From NCBI GenBank assembly GCA_938030705.1, contig CALHIR010000025.1, positions 17,259-81,258 of the forward strand: 64,000 nucleotides of DNA, in the 5' to 3' direction. Under the pieces are notes generated by a model. That model saw only the letters and a program-made list of their open reading frames with translations. It was not told where the DNA came from and did not search any database. Positions 13,230 to 34,306 of the stretch are shown here, in pieces. This DNA is from Candidatus Poseidoniaceae archaeon. Lineage in GTDB: Archaea; Thermoplasmatota; Poseidoniia; Poseidoniales; Poseidoniaceae. Position 1 is the stretch's first letter. Each line of letters begins with the position of its first letter. A program made the position numbers and the translations under genes.

Positions 13230-14303
13230 ATGTCAGACAAGAGCAAGCGAGACCTCGGCCAGTTTTTCACACGAGATTCTGTTTGGCTGCGCTCTCACAT
13301 ACGAACCCACATCGAAACCCTTCGTGAACGGTATACCGTGTGCGTTGACCCGTTTGCAGGCGACGGCCATCTTCTTGAAGTGGCCGAAGAATTGGGGTTT
13401 CATGTTCGTGGCCATGATATTGACGAGAGCATATGTGCCTCCAAGGAATGGGGAGATCCAAACGATTCTATTCGCCGAGTTATCGTTCATGATGGAGCCT
13501 TTGTCCTGACCAATCCACCTTACCTCGCCAAAAATTCGGCTAAGCGAATGAAGTCCTCCATGGTTGAGTATTTTTCTCCGGGGTTCATACCCACGCTTGA
13601 CGATTCACGGTTGAATGTTTTAGATGACTTATTCAAACTGGCCATTGAGCAAACCATAACAAAATACGATGATTCAATTTGGATCGTCCCTGAATCTGGC
13701 ATTCAGGATTTGGATGACTTGCCGCATTGGAAAGACCGACTTCATTCGGTTACGATTCTCGAGGATAATCCGTTCGATGATACAGAACACCCCGTCTGCG
13801 TCATGATTTTCTCAACATCAAACCCCCTAAAAGAGGTGTGGAAAAACGACACGCTCCTCGGCACATACGATGAGATTCGGCGCGTTCACAATCAAACTGC
13901 AAAAGGGCCATCCAATTTGACCCACATGAAATTCAACGCACCCGATGGAACGCTCGGCTACCGAGCTGTCGACGGAACCCGAGAAGACGGAAGCATGCGC
14001 ATCAAATTCTGTCGGGGCGAGGAATTGGGTTATGACCGTAGCAATATCAAAGTGAGCAGCCGGCATTTAACCTACATTGAAATTGAACTTGAAGGCGACC
14101 TGCTCGACAGAATCATTGCGGATGCGAATCAACGCATCAATGCTTATCGGGAAGCCACGCATGATGTCTTTTTGACGGCCTTCATGGGAAACACAAAAAC
14201 AGGCGAACGGCGCAGACGTCTTGACTACAAACTCGCTCGAAAAATCTTCAACGAAGCGTTTAGAAGCCAAATCAATAAAGGTGGACTGAGGGATTACGGT
14301 TGA
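13230..14303 (+). CDS. Adenine-specific DNA methyltransferase (type II R-M like)
   Basis: A 357-residue N6-adenine methyltransferase. SAM motif I is CVDPFAGDGHLLEVA near residue 38, an acidic end of strand 2 lies in VRGHDIDES, and the catalytic motif IV is FVLTNPPYLAKNS near residue 92. The N-terminal KRDLGQFFTRDSVW resembles the QFFTP entry motif common to type II methylases. The C-terminal half should hold target recognition; the site is unknown. GC content is visibly lower than that of the surrounding genes, and the stop overlaps the next gene by four bases, so this is probably a mobile restriction-modification cassette. Confidence 0.85.
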   Translation: MSDKSKRDLGQFFTRDSVWLRSHIRTHIETLRERYTVCVDPFAGDGHLLEVAEELGFHVRGHDIDESICASKEWGDPNDSIRRVIVHDGAFVLTNPPYLAKNSAKRMKSSMVEYFSPGFIPTLDDSRLNVLDDLFKLAIEQTITKYDDSIWIVPESGIQDLDDLPHWKDRLHSVTILEDNPFDDTEHPVCVMIFSTSNPLKEVWKNDTLLGTYDEIRRVHNQTAKGPSNLTHMKFNAPDGTLGYRAVDGTREDGSMRIKFCRGEELGYDRSNIKVSSRHLTYIEIELEGDLLDRIIADANQRINAYREATHDVFLTAFMGNTKTGERRRRLDYKLARKIFNEAFRSQINKGGLRDYG

Positions 14304-14845
14304 CTGCGAAATTCAAACACATTATTCCGGGCAAAAAAATGACCAAAGAATGGCGAACAAAAATCATCGGCGGTGGAAAGCCAATGGGGGGAGCAATCTC
14401 ATCAAGAGCAGAAGAATGGCAAAGAATGTGCTTGGAAAGAATTACAGGCGAAGAATGCACCAAAACAAATCTACGACTAAATCTTGAAACGCATAAACTC
14501 AAGAAAGTCACTCGACCGAGCAACGAACCTGATGAATTTGAATGGACGGAGGATTTTGATGGCGAATTTTTTGTCGGAAAAACGAGATACCTCGTCAATT
14601 TCAAAATGATCGTTGGGACAGGTGGCGTGCAAACTCGTTCAATGAGAGAGGTTTACCATTTCATCAAGTGCCAAGAATCTTATCTGAAATCATCAGGCGA
14701 TAAGCACACGAAATTTCTAAACATCCTTGATGGAGACAGTGTCGGTGCAAAAATGGCCCCTATGAGAAAGGCGTGTTCGAAAACAGGCTCGAAGAAAATT
14801 TTCATCGGTGATACCCATGAAATTAAGAAAATTTGGAAATTTTAA
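14300..14845 (+). CDS. Putative restriction endonuclease partner of the methyltransferase
   Basis: A 181-residue basic protein starting at a TTG that overlaps the methyltransferase stop. No family is recognised with certainty. The segment EDFDGEFFVGKTRYLVNFKM could form a PD-(D/E)xK-like core with the acidic residues before the strand and the NxK at its end; the following GGVQTRSMREVYHFIK is well ordered. Tight coupling to a DNA methyltransferase, low GC and size all fit a cognate type II nuclease, which would cut unmethylated sites. This is context-based inference; an accessory specificity protein is the alternative. Confidence 0.5.
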   Translation: MTAKFKHIIPGKKMTKEWRTKIIGGGKPMGGAISSRAEEWQRMCLERITGEECTKTNLRLNLETHKLKKVTRPSNEPDEFEWTEDFDGEFFVGKTRYLVNFKMIVGTGGVQTRSMREVYHFIKCQESYLKSSGDKHTKFLNILDGDSVGAKMAPMRKACSKTGSKKIFIGDTHEIKKIWKF

Positions 14846-14897: not shown

Positions 14898-14920
14898 GGA
14901 CAGAACGGCACACTGACTTG

Positions 14921-17900
14921 ATGTCCACTCTGCGTAGAACGACTCCCGGCCTGCTTGTGACCCTGCTTTTGCTTACGGCACTGTCTCCAATTGCCACGGT
15001 CCAAGCCGTTCCCGATGAGGCATCAGAGTACTATTACGGGGTCGAATACGACTGGTCAAGCCTTGACAGCGACCTGCAAAACGTAACCGGCTTGGACATC
15101 CAAACATTGTTCACCGAAATCATGGCGGACGCCGATGATGCAGGGTTCAACCTCGACCTTGGTCAGTTGACCACAGGCGCATCCAATGTTTACGTCCACC
15201 AAACCGAGGACATCACGCCTCAAACCATCCAGGACTTGGACGGCAACGACGTTCAAGTATGGAGCCGCACCAGCGACGTGGTACTTCGCCACGGCCTGTT
15301 GTCCAACGCCGTCATCATGACCGACTGGTCGGAGACGACCTTCGGCAGCGAGCCCACCGGCTTTGACATCGACGTCATCGCCGAAGCAGAGAACGTCCTG
15401 ACCGTTGACATGCTCTACACCGAATACCTCAACGACCAGTACCAACTCGTCGGCGCAGACATGGACATTGACATGACCGTTGGCAACGACATGAACCTCG
15501 GCATCGACATCACCCTCGAGGGTGACGGCGAGGAGCTCAATGTTGACTTCGACACCGGCATGGACTTCAGCTACTCCATTGCTTCTCAAGCCGAGTGGCG
15601 ACTTGGCAACCCCAGCCCCATCTACGTCACCGCTGCCTCCAACGACCGAACCGTTTGGGAATGCGTTGAGGAAGGCGACACCGTGGGTGTTGACGATGGT
15701 TGGGACGATGCCGAGGTCTACGACATGTGCGGCATGATCGACGGCTCCTACATCGGCTCGGCCGACTACAACGTCTACCTGACGGGCCTACCCATGGAAG
15801 AGTTTGGCTTCGATGCAGGTCAGTTTGACATCAGCATTAGCGACGAACTCACCAGCGAAGGCGACTACGAAGGCGAGGCCAACATGGACGATGTCTCGTT
15901 CAGCATGCGCACCGACGAACCACTCGAGGTCAACCTTGGAGACGGTAACACGCTCGATGTCACGGCCTGTGATACATGCCCGCCTGGCAACCCTGTCATG
16001 TTCATCATGATGGGCAATGTCTTGCTTCACGCCAGCGAATCCTTTGGCGAAGCGGTGACTGAAGACTTTGAGGCCGAACTCGAAGACTCGGTGGGTGAAC
16101 TCATCGAAGACTGGTTTGGCATTGACGACGATGGCGACATGGAGGAGTACGACGATAGCGATAACTGGTTCATGTGCGACAGCGGTGAGATGATTGAATC
16201 TTGGAACGTCAATGACGGTGATGAAGATTGCAAGGACGGTTCGGACGAAGACGACCTCTACCTGCGTGGCGGTACCACCCAAGATTGGAATACCGGCGAG
16301 GAACACTACGCCTTCAACGGCCGTGTAGATGCTACCAGCCTCGGTCTTGAATCCGATGCAACCATTGAATGTTATAGCGAATGGGATGGCTACATGGAGT
16401 TGCCAGTTGGCGATGTCAACGACGGCTATGACGACTGCGATGACGGCTCGGATGAGTACGACAACGGTCTCACCAGCACCTATGTCTGCTTGGATGGTTC
16501 CGAGATTTCCTTTGAACTCGTTAACGACGGCACGGCGGACTGCGCTGACGCTTCCGATGAACCCGTGGACAACGAAGGCGACTGGTACAACTGCGCCGAT
16601 TACAACGGCGCCGTGCCCTGGCAGTGGGTCAACGACGGTACTGCGCAGTGCGATGACGGCAGCGACGAATACAATGCCGCCGAGAGTGATGACTTCTATT
16701 GCGAAGACTGGTCGACCGTTTCCTTTGATCTCGTGAACGACGGCACCGAAGACTGTGCTGACGGCTCGGACGAAGGCGAGGGCATCTACTTCCTGATGGA
16801 CGTCTACATGAATGACGGCGAGGGCGGTGTGATCGCTTCCGGCGATGACCTTCTGCTCTGCGCTGCCTATCACTGCGACGTGTCCTTTAGCGTTGATTCG
16901 GGCTACATTCAGGTCGGTACCGAGGTACCAGCCGATATGGAATACGGTGAGAACACGATGTGTGCCGGTGGAAGCATCGCTGCTCCCGACGGCACATCGC
17001 TGGTCTCCGCTGTTGAAAATTGCGACTCGACATGGACTGGACCCGAAATCCGAGACTGGGAGAGCAACATGAACAACGAGGGTGACAACACCCTCCGTGT
17101 CACGGCGGGTGCAGGCACCTGGAGCGGTGAATACGACGACATCACGATGCATTGGGCCGTTTCCGATGCCGATGGCGCGGTTGTTGACCAGGGCAGCGTT
17201 GCTTTCAGCGATGAGTCCGAGGTCTACGCCGAGAACATGGTTGACATTGCTGGTGAGGGCGAATACTGTCTCTCCGTTGAATTGGTAGAGAACGGCGAGA
17301 CCGAGCCCTTTGACGCCTACGAAGACTGCATGACCGTTGAAGACGGCCCCGAAGTCAGCGAGCGCATGGAAAAGATTGTCGGCGCATTGGCCGATTCTGG
17401 CCTCAGCAACGTGCTGGAGAACTTCGGCAGCAACCTTGAGATGACCTTCCAAGAACTTGACGAGAACTACGAAGTGCCCGTCTTCCCCTACGCCGACGGC
17501 ATGTGGGCGCCTCTTTGGAGCAACGAGCACGCCACCATCGTTGGTGTTGGCGTGTACGCTTGGGATGAGGACGGCAACGGCTACGTCATCGCTGGACCGG
17601 AAACGACCGGCTACAGCCAGGACCTGCCCATGACCTTCGCCAGCATCCGCTACATCACCGGTGTTCCCGCACAGGAAGCCCAGGAGGCGATGGCTGAATT
17701 TGATGACCTCGAAGACATCGTTGATGTGGAAAATCACGACCTTACCGAACTGGCCAATGACCTCGAAGCCGCTGGTGCCGACACGTCCGACCTTGGTCTG
17801 GGAGACGAAACCACCGATGACGGTGAGGACACGCCTCCAACCGCTGAGGAAGTTGCCGAAGACGCAGGTCTTCTGCCCTTTGTATCTCCACTCACAGTCA

Positions 17901-17956
17901 TCGCACTCATCGGCCTTGCCGCTGTTGCAGGTAACCGACGAAGCGAGAACGAGTGA
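14921..17956 (+). CDS. Secreted acidic surface protein with LDL-receptor class A-like repeats
   Basis: About 1011 residues. An N-terminal signal peptide (LLVTLLLLTALSPIATVQA) and a C-terminal membrane anchor (FVSPLTVIALIGLAAVAGN followed by arginines) place it on the outer face of the cell. Between residues about 410 and 630 there are five ~40-residue units, each with a cysteine, an NDG/VNDG turn and a terminal acidic calcium-cage motif of the DCADGSDE type (DCKDGSDE, DCDDGSDE, DCADASDE, QCDDGSDE, DCADGSDE). This is the signature of LDLRA modules, although only part of the six-cysteine pattern is present. The rest is very rich in Asp and Glu with Ig-like beta segments. The ATG at 14921 is chosen over the TTG at 14918. 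The next gene overlaps by four bases. Confidence 0.75.
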   Translation: MSTLRRTTPGLLVTLLLLTALSPIATVQAVPDEASEYYYGVEYDWSSLDSDLQNVTGLDIQTLFTEIMADADDAGFNLDLGQLTTGASNVYVHQTEDITPQTIQDLDGNDVQVWSRTSDVVLRHGLLSNAVIMTDWSETTFGSEPTGFDIDVIAEAENVLTVDMLYTEYLNDQYQLVGADMDIDMTVGNDMNLGIDITLEGDGEELNVDFDTGMDFSYSIASQAEWRLGNPSPIYVTAASNDRTVWECVEEGDTVGVDDGWDDAEVYDMCGMIDGSYIGSADYNVYLTGLPMEEFGFDAGQFDISISDELTSEGDYEGEANMDDVSFSMRTDEPLEVNLGDGNTLDVTACDTCPPGNPVMFIMMGNVLLHASESFGEAVTEDFEAELEDSVGELIEDWFGIDDDGDMEEYDDSDNWFMCDSGEMIESWNVNDGDEDCKDGSDEDDLYLRGGTTQDWNTGEEHYAFNGRVDATSLGLESDATIECYSEWDGYMELPVGDVNDGYDDCDDGSDEYDNGLTSTYVCLDGSEISFELVNDGTADCADASDEPVDNEGDWYNCADYNGAVPWQWVNDGTAQCDDGSDEYNAAESDDFYCEDWSTVSFDLVNDGTEDCADGSDEGEGIYFLMDVYMNDGEGGVIASGDDLLLCAAYHCDVSFSVDSGYIQVGTEVPADMEYGENTMCAGGSIAAPDGTSLVSAVENCDSTWTGPEIRDWESNMNNEGDNTLRVTAGAGTWSGEYDDITMHWAVSDADGAVVDQGSVAFSDESEVYAENMVDIAGEGEYCLSVELVENGETEPFDAYEDCMTVEDGPEVSERMEKIVGALADSGLSNVLENFGSNLEMTFQELDENYEVPVFPYADGMWAPLWSNEHATIVGVGVYAWDEDGNGYVIAGPETTGYSQDLPMTFASIRYITGVPAQEAQEAMAEFDDLEDIVDVENHDLTELANDLEAAGADTSDLGLGDETTDDGEDTPPTAEEVAEDAGLLPFVSPLTVIALIGLAAVAGNRRSENE

Positions 17957-18876
17957 ATCAAAAGGAAGAACGGAGAGGGGCAGCCGTGTTGCCACGGCCA
18001 TCTCCTCACCGTGCCTTTGGCATCATCCGTTTGTCCGTGACCGTCCTCTTGGCAATTCACGTGTTCATCTCCGCTTGGCTGGTGGCCACAGCTGAAGGTG
18101 TCTACACCGAAGGCAAACCCGCTCCAACCGAGGCGCACTCATTGATTGCAATCGATAAAGATCAAACCATTATCGACGTAGAGATCAAACAGGCTACGGC
18201 TTTTTTCTTCTATGCGCTAGAACGAGACAGCGACGCATCGGTTCCAGTGAACGATACGACGCCTCCAGATGAGTCAGGCAGCGGTGATGAATCGGAGGCC
18301 GAAGACGAGCAAGGAAGGGATGAAGACCGAGCATGGCTCTCCATTGGCCGACAATCGATCAAATTCGGATTGGTCTTTCTCGTTCTTAGCGAGGTGCTGA
18401 TGTTGTCGTCCTTTGTCTGGCGTCATCACGTTCGTTCGTTGGCCTTCCTGTGCACGCTGGTCGCGTTTTCGGTTGTTTTCCCAGCCTGCTACATGTTGGA
18501 GTTGAGCGGTGGCGGCGATGACGAAGAGGATTCTACGGCTACCAACACCCCGGGGGCAAACATTGAGACGGTTTCCTTCGTGCATACCAACGCCTCCTCG
18601 GACTTCTCATTGATTTGGTTGGGAGTCCAACTAGAGGCCGATTTTTCGGGTTATGATCTGGGATTGGTTGAGCCAAACAACCGGACCTCGGTCGCTCAAC
18701 AGGTTCCCGCAAACGGAAGTAAAGATGCGAATTCATTCATCGCCTTTGAGTCTACATTTGAGATTGAGTTAGGAAAAAACCTCAACGCACTCCTTCTTTT
18801 GCCGTTCATGTGGTACCTATTGCCTGCTTTATCAATCGGAAAAAACGCCCCTACCATCAACGAAGAAGATGAGTAA
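17953..18876 (+). CDS. Multi-pass membrane protein of unknown function
   Basis: A 307-residue protein starting at a GTG that overlaps the stop of the surface protein gene. Four hydrophobic segments are visible: IIRLSVTVLLAIHVFISAWL (about residue 25), SIKFGLVFLVLSEVLMLSSF (about 135), LAFLCTLVAFSVVFPACYML (about 160) and a C-terminal one near 285. Between helices 1 and 2 lies an acidic Ser/Asp/Glu-rich linker, and a further extracellular-looking domain is between helices 3 and 4. No family is recognised. The overlap suggests it is made with, and perhaps helps anchor or export, the LDLRA-like protein; that is inference. Confidence 0.65.
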   Translation: MNQKEERRGAAVLPRPSPHRAFGIIRLSVTVLLAIHVFISAWLVATAEGVYTEGKPAPTEAHSLIAIDKDQTIIDVEIKQATAFFFYALERDSDASVPVNDTTPPDESGSGDESEAEDEQGRDEDRAWLSIGRQSIKFGLVFLVLSEVLMLSSFVWRHHVRSLAFLCTLVAFSVVFPACYMLELSGGGDDEEDSTATNTPGANIETVSFVHTNASSDFSLIWLGVQLEADFSGYDLGLVEPNNRTSVAQQVPANGSKDANSFIAFESTFEIELGKNLNALLLLPFMWYLLPALSIGKNAPTINEEDE

Positions 18877-29275: not shown

Positions 29276-32200
29276 ATGAACCAGAAAATCAAATCCGTTA
29301 GCCTAGCGTCCATCATGGTCCTTTCCGTGATGTCCTCGCTCCTTATCGCCTCCGTGTCGGTCAGTGCCAGCACGGTGGTCATCACCGAAGCCATCCAGAT
29401 TGTAGATGGCGGGACATCGTCCGATTCACAGACCGCCGTCGGTTCTGACAGTTCCGGCAACGTGCACGTTGTTTGGACCCGAAACAACCTCCACCTCTAT
29501 TATTCCATGATTTCGCCCCGTGGCGAGACGCTAATTGATGCGACCCAAATCACCAACGCCGGACTTCACAAGATTTGGCATCCTGATCTCGCCGTCGACG
29601 AATTTGACCGAATTCACGTCGTTTGGGCGGACAAAGCCGGTCAACATGCCATCATGTACACCGCCCTTTCCCCTTGGTCTGCTCCCATGGACGGCATGGC
29701 CTCCGACGACGGCACCATCACCGCCATCGACGATTCCATCATCTCGCGCCGCTCCCAAAACCGAGACTGGCCTGCCCTTGACATCGATAGCCAAAACAAC
29801 GTCCACATTGTTTGGCAAGACAACTACGACGAACTTGGCCGTTTCTTCAATCAGCCCCAAATCTACTACTCCATGATTCAGCCCGACATTGGCTCTGGTG
29901 CCATCATCACCCTCTTTGATGACACCCTCTTGACGCCCATCATCGGCCACAAAGGTCACCCCGATGTGGTCGTTGACGCCAACGATTACGTCCAAATCGC
30001 TTGGGACGACACCCGTGGCGGAAAGGTGGAACTGGCCTTTATCGTCGATACCTCGGGCTCCATGTATTCCGAGTGGGCTGACATCTGCACCGTTATTTAC
30101 GGCGGCAACTTTGCCTCCGGACCTTATTTCCAAGGCATCAAACCCATGCTTGAAGAAGGCAACATGACCGTTTACGAGACCATCTATGGTTTGGGCAACA
30201 CCCTCCCCGGTGCAGCAAGCTCAGGAAACTGTCAGGGCTACAACCAGAATACCGGCCCTCGAACCACGCCGCTCGGCCAAACCCCCGGCGACGACTCCGG
30301 CGGTATCCGCAAACTTCCCGGAACCATCTACAACGGCAACACGTACTCCGGTTATTCCGGTGAAGACTGGGGCCCAGGTTCTAACTGGGCCTGTTTGTCG
30401 TGGAAGGACTCTGCTGGAAACGTTCCCGGCAACCCTCCTACGCAATCGGACCACCGCTGGAACCCCAACGCCACCAAGATCGTGATTCCTGTTTCAGATG
30501 AAGGTCCAAAGGACGGCGACCCGTCTCAGCAAGCCGATGACAAAGCAGCCATCCAAGAAGCACACGACAACTGTTTGTTGGCTGGCGTGATTCCAGTCGG
30601 TCTCTACGGTCAAGGCTACGGCGGTGCAGGCAACATCCAGTCTCACTTCATGGATCTGGTGCAGTGCCCCAACGGCATCGTTTCGACCCAAACTCGAAAC
30701 TGCCCCGGCAACACCCTTGCCAACACCGACGCCGGCGGGCAAGCCTACGAATTCCCTTCAGGCTCGGGTACCAACCAAATGGCCCTTCTCGTCGAAGCCA
30801 TGGTCTACATTTCAACCAACAATTCGCGTGAAATCTACATGTCGGTCCTCGACCCCTATGCCAAGATGAACAATGACCCCAGTTTCACTCCTGGATTGCC
30901 CGGCCACTCTGCACAGGGCGGCAACTACGCAGAAGACACCGGTGCTGGTGCTGACGGCCACTTGGTGGTCGTCAACGACACCCGCGTCACCATCGACGAC
31001 GCTTACTCATTCCACCCCTCCATCGGCGTTGACCAGCAAGGCAACACCCACATTGCGTGGATGGACGGCCGCGACTATGGTTTCGAGAAGGACGTGAACT
31101 ACGAGGTGTACTACACCAAACTTCGCCTCCAAGGTGCCGGCGCTTGGGACGGGGCAGATGAAGGCCTCTCCACCTACGCCATCAAGAAGATCAACGACAC
31201 CCCCATCTCCAACGTGGAAGGCAAGAACGGCCTGCCCCCTGCCTCGCCTTATGCAGGCAACTCCGTCTTCCCGTCCTTGTTGACCGACGACCAGAACAAC
31301 ATCCACATTGCGTGGGTTGATTCCGGCAACCTTTCGGCGAACGAAGAGATTCTCTACACCCGATTGAACCAAACCGACCTGACCGGCGATGGCCTCACGG
31401 CCCTTGACCCCTGGGAAGCCGTGGCAGTGACCTCTTGGAATTCCAACAAACTCGGGCCAAACAGCGGCCGTCAACCGGCCATCGGTATGCCGCCGGCCTT
31501 CTCGAACGACTTGGGAAGCGGCGCACACATTGCGTGGTCCGACACCAACAAGTGCGGTGATGACGGTAACAACAATCGGTTCACCATCTGTTATTCCCAC
31601 GTTCTGACCGGCCAAGTGGACGTTGATTTTGACGAAGGCGAGACCTTCTATCACGTCATTGAACCCGGACAACAGACCATCTACAACATGACGATGAACA
31701 ACTCAACACCCGGTCCCAAGGACCTGGTCGCTGACACCTACGGCTTGAACATCTCTGGCGTACCGATGAACTGGACAGCGAACCTCTACTTCGCCTCCAA
31801 CCACTCGAGCATCTTCCCAGACACACCGATTTTCCTCGAAGGCGGTGAAGACATTCGGTTCTATATGCGAGTGCAGGCCCCGTCCATCTACCAAGCAAAC
31901 GGGGACGAATTAGCTGAAATCCGTATTACGGCACAGTCCTACAAGGACCCAGCCATTCAGAACGACATCATCACGCTGACCTTGATGGACGTGGTTCACG
32001 GCATCAACCTCGACACCTCGCACAGCATGGCGGATATTGAGCAGGGCGACACCGCCATCTTCTCCATTACCATCACCAACACGGGTAACGTGCACGACGC
32101 CTTTGTCTTCTGGGATCCTAACAGTCTCGAAGGGCAGCAAGAATGGCTCCTCCCGTTCGGCTGGCAAGTGAACTTCCCGATTCGGGTGGAATTGGACCCT

Positions 32201-34306
32201 GGCCAATCGGTCACCAAGAACCTCGAAGTCTTCGTTCCGACCACGGAAGACCCCGGGGCCTTCGTCATTTACGTGAAGGGCTGGTCAGAGGGCGAACCCA
32301 TCAAGTCAGTGGAAAAAGGCACCTATGACATCCTTGAATTGGGTGTGTTCGTGTCCATCCGTTCCACCGGCAACATCGTGTTTGCTGTGGACGACCGCTC
32401 TGAACAAATCAAGCCAGGTGAGTGCGCAGACTACAACATCAACGTGACCAAGAATTTCGATTCCGGTGAACTCGTGTTCGCAACCCCAGGTGCTCCAGAA
32501 GCCAAGCCAGACGGCATCGCTATGGATGCATGGCGAGAAGAAAACTGGGTCGTCATCGTTGACTTCGCCAACGCCACAGGTTCAGCTGACGCTGGCGACG
32601 GGCTCGGCGATCCTATTGCCTGGACCATTCCAGGTACAGCCGATAAGATCACCAAGCGTGTCACCGTCCATGTTTGTGCTCCTGAAAACGCCACGGCCGG
32701 TCTCGGCCCTGCCATCACACTGAAGGGCTACCTGGACGGCTATCCACGTATTTCGGATTCGGCCATCTTGTCCACCAACGTTGAGCACGTGTTTGCTCTC
32801 GATGCGGGCGTTGATCCCGATGTTGGCACCTCGATGAACGTGAACCCCGGCGAAAAGATTTCGCTGCCGATCACGGTCACCAACGACGGAAACGGTCCTG
32901 ACCGCTTTGACTTCCGTCTCGCACGGGTCACCGATGCATTCGGCGTCGATGTCATCTGGGACATCGAAATTCCTCGAGAGACGTTGCAGGAACTCTCCCC
33001 TGACACCTATCAAGCCTTTGAGGTCATGATGAACGTGCCAAACAGAGTCCCAGCAGGCGAATACACCGTTGTGTTGCAAGCCTTCTCAGAGGAAGTCTAT
33101 CCCGATGCCAGCGGCCGAGAAACGCGGATTCGAGACACCATCGTTTTGGCGGTGTCCGTTGACGAGTTCCACGACATGCAAATCTCGATGGATTCAACCG
33201 TTGACAATGCCGTGAAGACTTCTGCCCCAGGAAAGATCGTTCGGTTCACGTTCAACGTGACCAACAACGGCAACGTTCCGGATGTTCCAACTCTAAACAA
33301 CCACACCGCTCAGCGAGACGGCGATTCTCTCCTCTGGAATGAGTTGCCCGGCATGAGCGTGCTCAGCTCCTGGGATGTGGACTGGTTCATCATGCGGCAG
33401 GTCAGCGCTGACCTCATCGTGGAGGAATCCTGCATGTACATGCAATCCACGGCCTCCTCTTTCCCAGAGGATGCTTGCGTTTACCTCGAAGATATCGACG
33501 AATGGCGTCTTCCCGAGATGGCCCCGTACGAAACCATCACCACCGTTGCTGCAGTGAAGATTGGCACGGACGCCAAGCTTGACACACGAAACATTGGCCT
33601 GAAGGTCGTATCAATGTACGGCGATATGGAAAACGACGGCGACCATGACGATTCTCCAGAATGGGATGGCGACAACTATGATTCAAACGAATTCATTGTC
33701 ACCCTCCGATTGCGAGCACCAAACCTTGAGATCAAGGAAATCATCATGCCCCCTTCCACCTCAAGCGAAGTGGACACGACGATTCCAATCGGCATCATCT
33801 TGCAGAACACAGGTAACGTCCATGCGACCGACATCGAAATCGTGCTTTGTGAATACGATGACGTGAACGATGCCGACATCATGAAGGAAATCCGTGAAAA
33901 CGGATGCGAGGAAGAGCGTGTGGTCATGCGTCAAGTGGTCGGTGCCCTGTTGGCTCCAGACGACACCGAGGATGCGAAGGAAATCGAACTCTACCTGCTC
34001 TACCCGGTTACCGCCGGAAGCAAGGGGGTTTACGTGGTGGTTGACCCGATGAACGAAATCGTTGAGTCCGATGAGAAAGACAACGTCAGGCCCATTCCAG
34101 AAGCTCTTGAGTCCAACAGCCCCATGATCGACTTGGCAAAAGAGGTCGTTGGAAAGACCGCCTTGCCGTTCGCCGTCATCGTGCTGACCATTGCCCTCCT
34201 GGGTGTGGTCTACTTGGTCGGTAAGGGCCGACGCGATGAAGTGAACAAGCGACTTGCTGAACAATCCTCGTTGGTCACTGTGCTGGCAGACGAAGAAAAC
34301 CTCTGA
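29276..34306 (+). CDS. Giant secreted surface protein: propeller-like repeats, von Willebrand A domain, CARDB/NEW3-like domains
   Basis: A 1676-residue protein with signal peptide (LASIMVLSVMSSLLIASVSV) and C-terminal anchor (LPFAVIVLTIALLGVVYLVG). Residues about 55-240 and 570-780 hold repeated NVHVVWTRNN / RIHVVWADKA / NTHIAWMDGRD / NIHIAWVDSGN strands like sialidase-type propeller blades. Inserted between them (about 255-520) is a von Willebrand A-type domain opening with LAFIVDTSGSMYSEW, the DxSxS metal site. From about residue 830 on there are Ig-like modules with ITVTNDGNGPDRFDF and IGIILQNTGNVHATDI, typical of NEW3 and CARDB domains. It probably binds other cells, particles or polymers at the surface. 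No neighbour in the same operon. Confidence 0.78.
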   Translation: MNQKIKSVSLASIMVLSVMSSLLIASVSVSASTVVITEAIQIVDGGTSSDSQTAVGSDSSGNVHVVWTRNNLHLYYSMISPRGETLIDATQITNAGLHKIWHPDLAVDEFDRIHVVWADKAGQHAIMYTALSPWSAPMDGMASDDGTITAIDDSIISRRSQNRDWPALDIDSQNNVHIVWQDNYDELGRFFNQPQIYYSMIQPDIGSGAIITLFDDTLLTPIIGHKGHPDVVVDANDYVQIAWDDTRGGKVELAFIVDTSGSMYSEWADICTVIYGGNFASGPYFQGIKPMLEEGNMTVYETIYGLGNTLPGAASSGNCQGYNQNTGPRTTPLGQTPGDDSGGIRKLPGTIYNGNTYSGYSGEDWGPGSNWACLSWKDSAGNVPGNPPTQSDHRWNPNATKIVIPVSDEGPKDGDPSQQADDKAAIQEAHDNCLLAGVIPVGLYGQGYGGAGNIQSHFMDLVQCPNGIVSTQTRNCPGNTLANTDAGGQAYEFPSGSGTNQMALLVEAMVYISTNNSREIYMSVLDPYAKMNNDPSFTPGLPGHSAQGGNYAEDTGAGADGHLVVVNDTRVTIDDAYSFHPSIGVDQQGNTHIAWMDGRDYGFEKDVNYEVYYTKLRLQGAGAWDGADEGLSTYAIKKINDTPISNVEGKNGLPPASPYAGNSVFPSLLTDDQNNIHIAWVDSGNLSANEEILYTRLNQTDLTGDGLTALDPWEAVAVTSWNSNKLGPNSGRQPAIGMPPAFSNDLGSGAHIAWSDTNKCGDDGNNNRFTICYSHVLTGQVDVDFDEGETFYHVIEPGQQTIYNMTMNNSTPGPKDLVADTYGLNISGVPMNWTANLYFASNHSSIFPDTPIFLEGGEDIRFYMRVQAPSIYQANGDELAEIRITAQSYKDPAIQNDIITLTLMDVVHGINLDTSHSMADIEQGDTAIFSITITNTGNVHDAFVFWDPNSLEGQQEWLLPFGWQVNFPIRVELDPGQSVTKNLEVFVPTTEDPGAFVIYVKGWSEGEPIKSVEKGTYDILELGVFVSIRSTGNIVFAVDDRSEQIKPGECADYNINVTKNFDSGELVFATPGAPEAKPDGIAMDAWREENWVVIVDFANATGSADAGDGLGDPIAWTIPGTADKITKRVTVHVCAPENATAGLGPAITLKGYLDGYPRISDSAILSTNVEHVFALDAGVDPDVGTSMNVNPGEKISLPITVTNDGNGPDRFDFRLARVTDAFGVDVIWDIEIPRETLQELSPDTYQAFEVMMNVPNRVPAGEYTVVLQAFSEEVYPDASGRETRIRDTIVLAVSVDEFHDMQISMDSTVDNAVKTSAPGKIVRFTFNVTNNGNVPDVPTLNNHTAQRDGDSLLWNELPGMSVLSSWDVDWFIMRQVSADLIVEESCMYMQSTASSFPEDACVYLEDIDEWRLPEMAPYETITTVAAVKIGTDAKLDTRNIGLKVVSMYGDMENDGDHDDSPEWDGDNYDSNEFIVTLRLRAPNLEIKEIIMPPSTSSEVDTTIPIGIILQNTGNVHATDIEIVLCEYDDVNDADIMKEIRENGCEEERVVMRQVVGALLAPDDTEDAKEIELYLLYPVTAGSKGVYVVVDPMNEIVESDEKDNVRPIPEALESNSPMIDLAKEVVGKTALPFAVIVLTIALLGVVYLVGKGRRDEVNKRLAEQSSLVTVLADEENL

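Follow-up and report, generated by a model that had tools for sequence, protein, structure and literature searches.

Does a surface protein of a planktonic archaeon carry genuine LDL-receptor class A (LDLRA) modules, and what would they do there? Poseidoniales are among the most abundant archaea of the surface ocean and are uncultured, and we found no mention of archaeal LDLRA in the literature searched, the main texts on Poseidoniales being silent on LDL-receptor domains. The question arose from a preliminary description of a 64,000-nucleotide stretch of a Candidatus Poseidoniaceae genome (the window; contig CALHIR010000025.1, positions 17,259 to 81,258), which had noted LDLRA-like repeats in one predicted protein. 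The features of this locus are as follows.

14918..17956, + strand: LDLRA-bearing surface protein, 1012 aa (open frame, full-length orthologues)
14918..15010, + strand: signal-peptide-like N terminus, residues 1-31 (basic start, then hydrophobic residues 13-31)
15023..16117, + strand: N-terminal domain, residues 36-400 (AlphaFold: long antiparallel strands, then a long helix)
16163..16255, + strand: LDLRA unit 1, residues 416-446, C420/C438 (paralogue profile, 32.4 bits)
16355..16462, + strand: LDLRA unit 2, residues 480-515, C485/C507, first loop longer (21.6 bits)
16475..16567, + strand: LDLRA unit 3, residues 520-550, C524/C542 (42.8 bits)
16580..16675, + strand: LDLRA unit 4, residues 555-586, C559/C578 (23.3 bits)
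16688..16780, + strand: LDLRA unit 5, residues 591-621, C595/C613 (35.1 bits)
16787..17335, + strand: beta-rich region, residues about 624-806 (AlphaFold strands, resembling two Ig/FnIII-like sandwiches)
17870..17926, + strand: predicted C-terminal transmembrane anchor, residues 985-1003 (hydropathy; tails of 36 orthologues)
17953..18876, + strand: partner gene, 307-aa membrane protein with four predicted helices, its start overlapping the stop of the LDLRA gene

The LDLRA gene begins with TTG at 14918, and an alternative ATG at 14921 would give a protein of 1011 aa. Full-length orthologues were found in Poseidoniales at up to 97% identity, the closest in a Poseidonia sp. MAG, and the 60 loci of the orthologue set are labelled Poseidonia, Poseidoniales, Poseidoniaceae or Euryarchaeota/euryarchaeote. 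Judged by sequence, the host is a Poseidonia-type Marine Group II archaeon (Poseidoniales). These orthologues, together with the signal-like N terminus and the C-terminal anchor seen in the hydropathy profile, agree with the earlier reading of a surface protein of a planktonic archaeon. The anchor sits in a conserved tail, GLLPF.SP-hydrophobic-RR, in 36 orthologues. We treat this tail as a plain membrane anchor because no sorting enzyme was recognised, 13 genomes having given no above-cut-off match to an exosortase or archaeosortase that might process it. The protein resembles PGF-CTERM-type archaeal surface proteins in that a signal peptide leads into a large extracytoplasmic part and a short hydrophobic anchor at the C terminus precedes a basic tail, and some LDLRA paralogues have PGF-like tails, but the window protein has the GLLPF.SP tail instead.

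The N-terminal domain is conserved as far as the second Poseidoniales family (E 1e-10 to 1e-62). It has no named family, Pfam giving only LDLRA-type matches in the window protein, and no informative structural neighbor was present among the Foldseek matches listed. The full-length AlphaFold model was of moderate confidence (pLDDT 64), and its Foldseek matches included LRP2/megalin entries as well as numerous paired beta-sandwich proteins, e.g., EpoR, GH2, and transglutaminase, matched over approximately 190 to 250 columns. The latter matches probably belong to the region of residues ~624-806. BLAST/HMM coverage shows this Ig-like region to be distinctly weaker, or missing, in the second family, and a conserved C-terminal domain separates it from the terminal anchor. 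All 20 cysteines of the protein form close pairs in the sequence, and its composition is strongly acidic, with 23.6% Asp+Glu versus 1.7% Lys+Arg.

The identity of the repeats was approached through profile searches and structure prediction. Pfam-A matched PF00057 (Ldl_recept_a) to several stretches of the window protein (E = 4e-14; 53 bits against a cut-off of 24.1) and to 22 of 32 orthologues at E ≤ 0.01. A phmmer search of PDB sequences with the window protein retrieved the LDL receptor (3e-8) and glucosidase II beta (GIIb; 5e-7), and a profile of 40 archaeal units retrieved LRP2, VLDLR, LDLR, GIIb, factor I, enteropeptidase, and CD320 from the same database; in these alignments LDLRA C2 is matched by the archaeal F.C and LDLRA C5 by the archaeal DC. 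For an AlphaFold model of units 3 to 5 (mean pLDDT 76, likewise of moderate confidence), the best 50 PDB matches in Foldseek were all LDLRA proteins, and the best single-module superposition was that with VLDLR LA1 (1.6 Å rmsd over 31 columns, 39% identity). The Foldseek E-values were only about 1e-3, which we attribute to the small size of the module and to differing inter-module angles. The predicted fold is the small beta-hairpin plus helical turn of LDLRA. On sequence and predicted structure alike, then, the archaeal units are homologous to LDLRA modules, and the original observation stands. The two checks named in advance, a profile match and a calcium cage, turned out with PF00057 above its cut-off and the cage acids present.

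Five units with DCxDGSDE-type motifs had been placed at residues about 410-630, and we found them at 416-621, sharing the motif [ND]DG..xC.DxSDE. The uniform spacing of about 40 residues was not borne out, since consecutive units lie 69, 35, 36, and 35 residues apart from C5 to C5. All four calcium-cage acids (D25, D29, D35, and E36 in LR5-type numbering) are present in units 1, 2, 3, and 5, whereas the second cage position of unit 4 is occupied by Gln577 and not by the calcium-ligand Asp. The cysteine pair of unit 3 is kept in 37/37 aligned proteins and that of unit 5 in 36/37. Orthologues have one to seven recognizable units, and some show degenerate ligand positions (ED for SDE, NDY for NDG). 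Not every unit need bind calcium, because of these degenerate positions and because some orthologues retain only one or two recognizable units.

A canonical LDLRA module has six cysteines joined by disulfides I-III, II-V, and IV-VI, so that C2-C5 is one of three. The preliminary description had suspected fewer than six cysteines per unit; there are exactly two, C2 and C5, in each unit of the window. The same held among 268 distinct units, 259 of which contained exactly two cysteines and none six. C2 was a cysteine in all 258 units covering it and C5 in 268/268, while C3 was a cysteine in a single unit and C4 in none; the C4 position is taken by Asn and the C3 position usually by Glu, Thr, or Ser, and C1 and C6 are missing. 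The four calcium-ligand columns held D in 246, D in 234, D in 238, and E in 237 of the 268 units, the remainder of the last two being gaps. This count came from a profile seeded with two-cysteine units, and both a Pfam-based genome search and a cysteine-independent count agree with it, the latter finding C5 as a cysteine in 161/161 motifs and C4 in 0/161. Among the motifs from Pfam-found loci, 14 of 77 were followed by a cysteine within 10 residues, which, given the tight tandem packing, is presumably C2 of the next unit. The position of the ligand-clamping Trp of LDLR modules is W/Y/L-rich in the archaeal units and is not invariant. VKOR, a disulfide-forming enzyme, is encoded in 10 of 13 genomes (the window genome and 9 of 12 relatives), and an extracellular disulfide is thus plausible; DsbA-like Thioredoxin_4 was found in none of the 13. 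Going by sequence and model, the modules are a form of LDLRA with a predicted C2-C5 disulfide only and with the calcium cage kept. This form, consistent throughout an archaeal order, reveals what may be the smallest calcium-dependent core of the fold and provides a test case for whether Ca2+ and C2-C5 are enough to fold an LDLRA module.

PF00057 matches were present in 138 of 194 Poseidoniales genomes, covering 20 of 21 genera. In a wider sample of 293 genomes across the phylum, to which the distribution searches were confined, matches outside the order were limited to two genomes, both from a single genus of its class. One of these genomes, which belongs to a different family, encodes a protein (L108; G271:C66) with two units of the two-cysteine kind and a PGF-like tail. 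The 14 control genomes gave no PF00057 match at the cut-off, tblastn searches of plasmid and phage collections gave no match, and none of 184 pattern matches in viral contigs was confirmed. Two-cysteine LDLRA units occur in lipoproteins, thrombospondin-3-like (TSP3-like) proteins, proteins with EF-hand-like loops, and membrane proteins, and this variety of surface-protein architectures amounts to domain shuffling. In the lipoproteins L109 (G000:C58:1-4000) and L113 (G002:C1), TSP3-like DxDGDG repeats precede 13 and 18 two-cysteine units, respectively. Membrane proteins of approximately 205 to 250 aa (L018, L028, L033, and L039) have one LDLRA unit at the extreme C terminus, and some such single-unit proteins have a zinc-ribbon-like CxxC region at the N terminus.

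Such modules are also relevant to how a domain usually regarded as animal or eukaryotic arose. The archaeal units share with those of LDLR, VLDLR, and LRP2 (PF00057) the register F.C..G..I...[WV].xDG..DC.DGSDE, the calcium-ligand acids and, by prediction, a tandem array at the cell surface. They differ in lacking C1, C3, C4, and C6, in having Asn at C4, and in their archaeal host, and the protein lacks the EGF and YWTD-propeller partner domains of the LDL receptor family, no EGF or YWTD match being found in 32 orthologues at E ≤ 0.01. The LDLRA pair of GIIb (PRKCSH-like, PF12999; PDB 5f0e), a eukaryotic endoplasmic reticulum protein, is similar in that VND[G] replaces xCDG, C3 and C4 are lacking, and a DGSxTIP-type loop is present, although it has extra cysteines (YCDC and a following C) absent from the archaeal units. 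With such a module in GIIb, the description of LDLRA as an animal domain was too narrow. The window protein is not itself a GIIb orthologue: PF12999 reached 24.7 bits against a cut-off of 34.9, over two LDLRA units only, and Pfam found no GIIb domain beyond the LDLRA pair. PF12999 matched 12 of 32 orthologues of the LDLRA protein (best E, 6.4e-13).

Of 19 eukaryotic modules tried, the first GIIb module scored highest with the unmasked archaeal profile (40.9 bits), but modules of VLDLR and LDLR outscored it when the C3/C4 columns were masked. No donor is singled out, since the GIIb preference depends on these two columns. Of the earlier suggestion of a reduced or ancestral form, the reduction to two cysteines stands, while ancestry is not established because this preference was lost on masking; the VND and missing cysteines common to GIIb and the archaeal units may reflect common descent or parallel loss. 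A eukaryote-to-archaeon transfer, in which the Poseidoniia ancestor gained a GIIb-type or LDLR-type module that then spread by domain shuffling, has a substantial chance of being correct, though one somewhat short of even. Matches within the phylum sample are confined to the order and one further genus of its class, with none in the 14 controls, and the solved relatives are exclusively eukaryotic modules, both of which fit a transfer. Besides the masked-column result, it is opposed by a sampling confined to one archaeal phylum and by the uniform, order-wide occurrence of the archaeal form in archaea-only architectures, which means that any transfer must be old. A more speculative reading, for which we see perhaps some room, makes the single-disulfide, calcium-caged module an old mobile extracellular module of Poseidoniia, distributed by shuffling over many surface proteins much like LDLRA in animals, and either preserving a form that preceded the six-cysteine one or co-descended with the VND-type of GIIb. 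The transfer concerns origin and is compatible with our preferred explanation of function, given below.

Where a locus contains enough sequence, the four-helix gene almost always comes immediately after the LDLRA gene, even if the other neighbors differ, and distant orthologues of the two proteins are likewise encoded side by side in the second Poseidoniales family. By sequence and model, the two genes form a conserved two-gene unit. The four-helix protein (17953-18876) matched no Pfam family, and we infer that it works together with the LDLRA protein, since their adjacency is conserved across surroundings and in both families.

What the protein does may be approached from LDL-receptor modules, in which the calcium-site acids bind lysines of the ligand. 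Taken as a whole, the evidence is probably best explained by an anchored surface protein whose five two-cysteine LDLRA modules form a calcium-rigidified array for basic ligands. The gene product would be secreted, held at the membrane by its C-terminal anchor, and display five tandem modules of LDLRA fold, each keeping a predicted calcium cage made of the Asp of NDG, the Asp of DC, and the Asp and Glu of SDE. Each module would fold around one Ca2+ from seawater and one C2-C5 disulfide, and the resulting rigid and very acidic string would, by analogy, bind Lys/Arg patches of extracellular ligands in a calcium-dependent manner. The outcome may be the capture of proteins or particles or contact with other cells, in cooperation with the membrane protein of the adjacent gene; particle or cell binding, proposed from the outset, is a reasonable expectation. 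To date, attachment of Poseidoniales has been attributed to flagella and to thrombospondin-like and flotillin genes (PMC6461757). The LDLRA arrays are thus a new concrete candidate for contact of these archaea with particles, proteins, and cells.

Alternatively, the modules may be structural, i.e., calcium staples or spacers that stiffen a stalk linking the N-terminal domain to the Ig-like region, while other domains do the binding. Such a role would suit modules positioned between two larger domains, a unit number that ranges from one to seven among orthologues with a constant N-terminal domain, and the co-occurrence of other calcium repeats (TSP3-like and EF-hand-like) in paralogues. However, a spacer role is implausible for a lone C-terminal module after transmembrane helices, and the modules recur in unrelated architectures, including lipoproteins with arrays of 13 to 18 units. 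We therefore consider this alternative possible but rather unlikely.

Far less probable is convergence, i.e., that DxSDE calcium loops arose independently in an acidic protein, which resembles LDLRA in composition only. The Asp+Glu content given above and the similar composition of EF-hand and TSP3 calcium loops might suggest it, but composition did not reproduce the match. With a profile built only on paralogous units of other genomes, the real units scored 21.6 to 42.8 bits, versus 13.4 bits for the best of 5,000 region shuffles of the same composition and 8.9 bits for the best of 2,000 whole-protein shuffles. The similarity also extends over the whole module (F.C, G, I, V/W, DG, DC, SDE) with both cysteines in register, and the predicted fold matches LDLRA, so that convergence is largely refuted. 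Eukaryotic contamination of the metagenome bin, conceivable with a window genome in 63 contigs and related records that are mostly MAGs, can be dismissed, as the gene pair recurs in numerous assemblies and in the chromosome record CM001443.1 (2 Mb), archaeal gene surroundings are shared, and a single-contig genome of the family carries LDLRA lipoproteins.

Upstream, a DNA-methylase-like gene (13230-14303, + strand) and an overlapping 181-aa gene of no assigned family (14300-14845, + strand) separate the LDLRA gene from a glutamine amidotransferase gene. The methylase occurs at this locus in L048-L050, L052-L054, and L094 and is missing in other relatives, and the pair thus looks like an inserted restriction-modification-type pair. 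Farther downstream, a 1676-aa gene (29276-34306, + strand) with CARDB, DUF7507, and NPCBM-associated matches encodes another large putative surface protein. The segment 44001-46000 has a GC content of 0.44, compared with about 0.55 elsewhere, and contains FkbM-type methyltransferase and glycosyltransferase genes, which together suggest a surface-glycan island.
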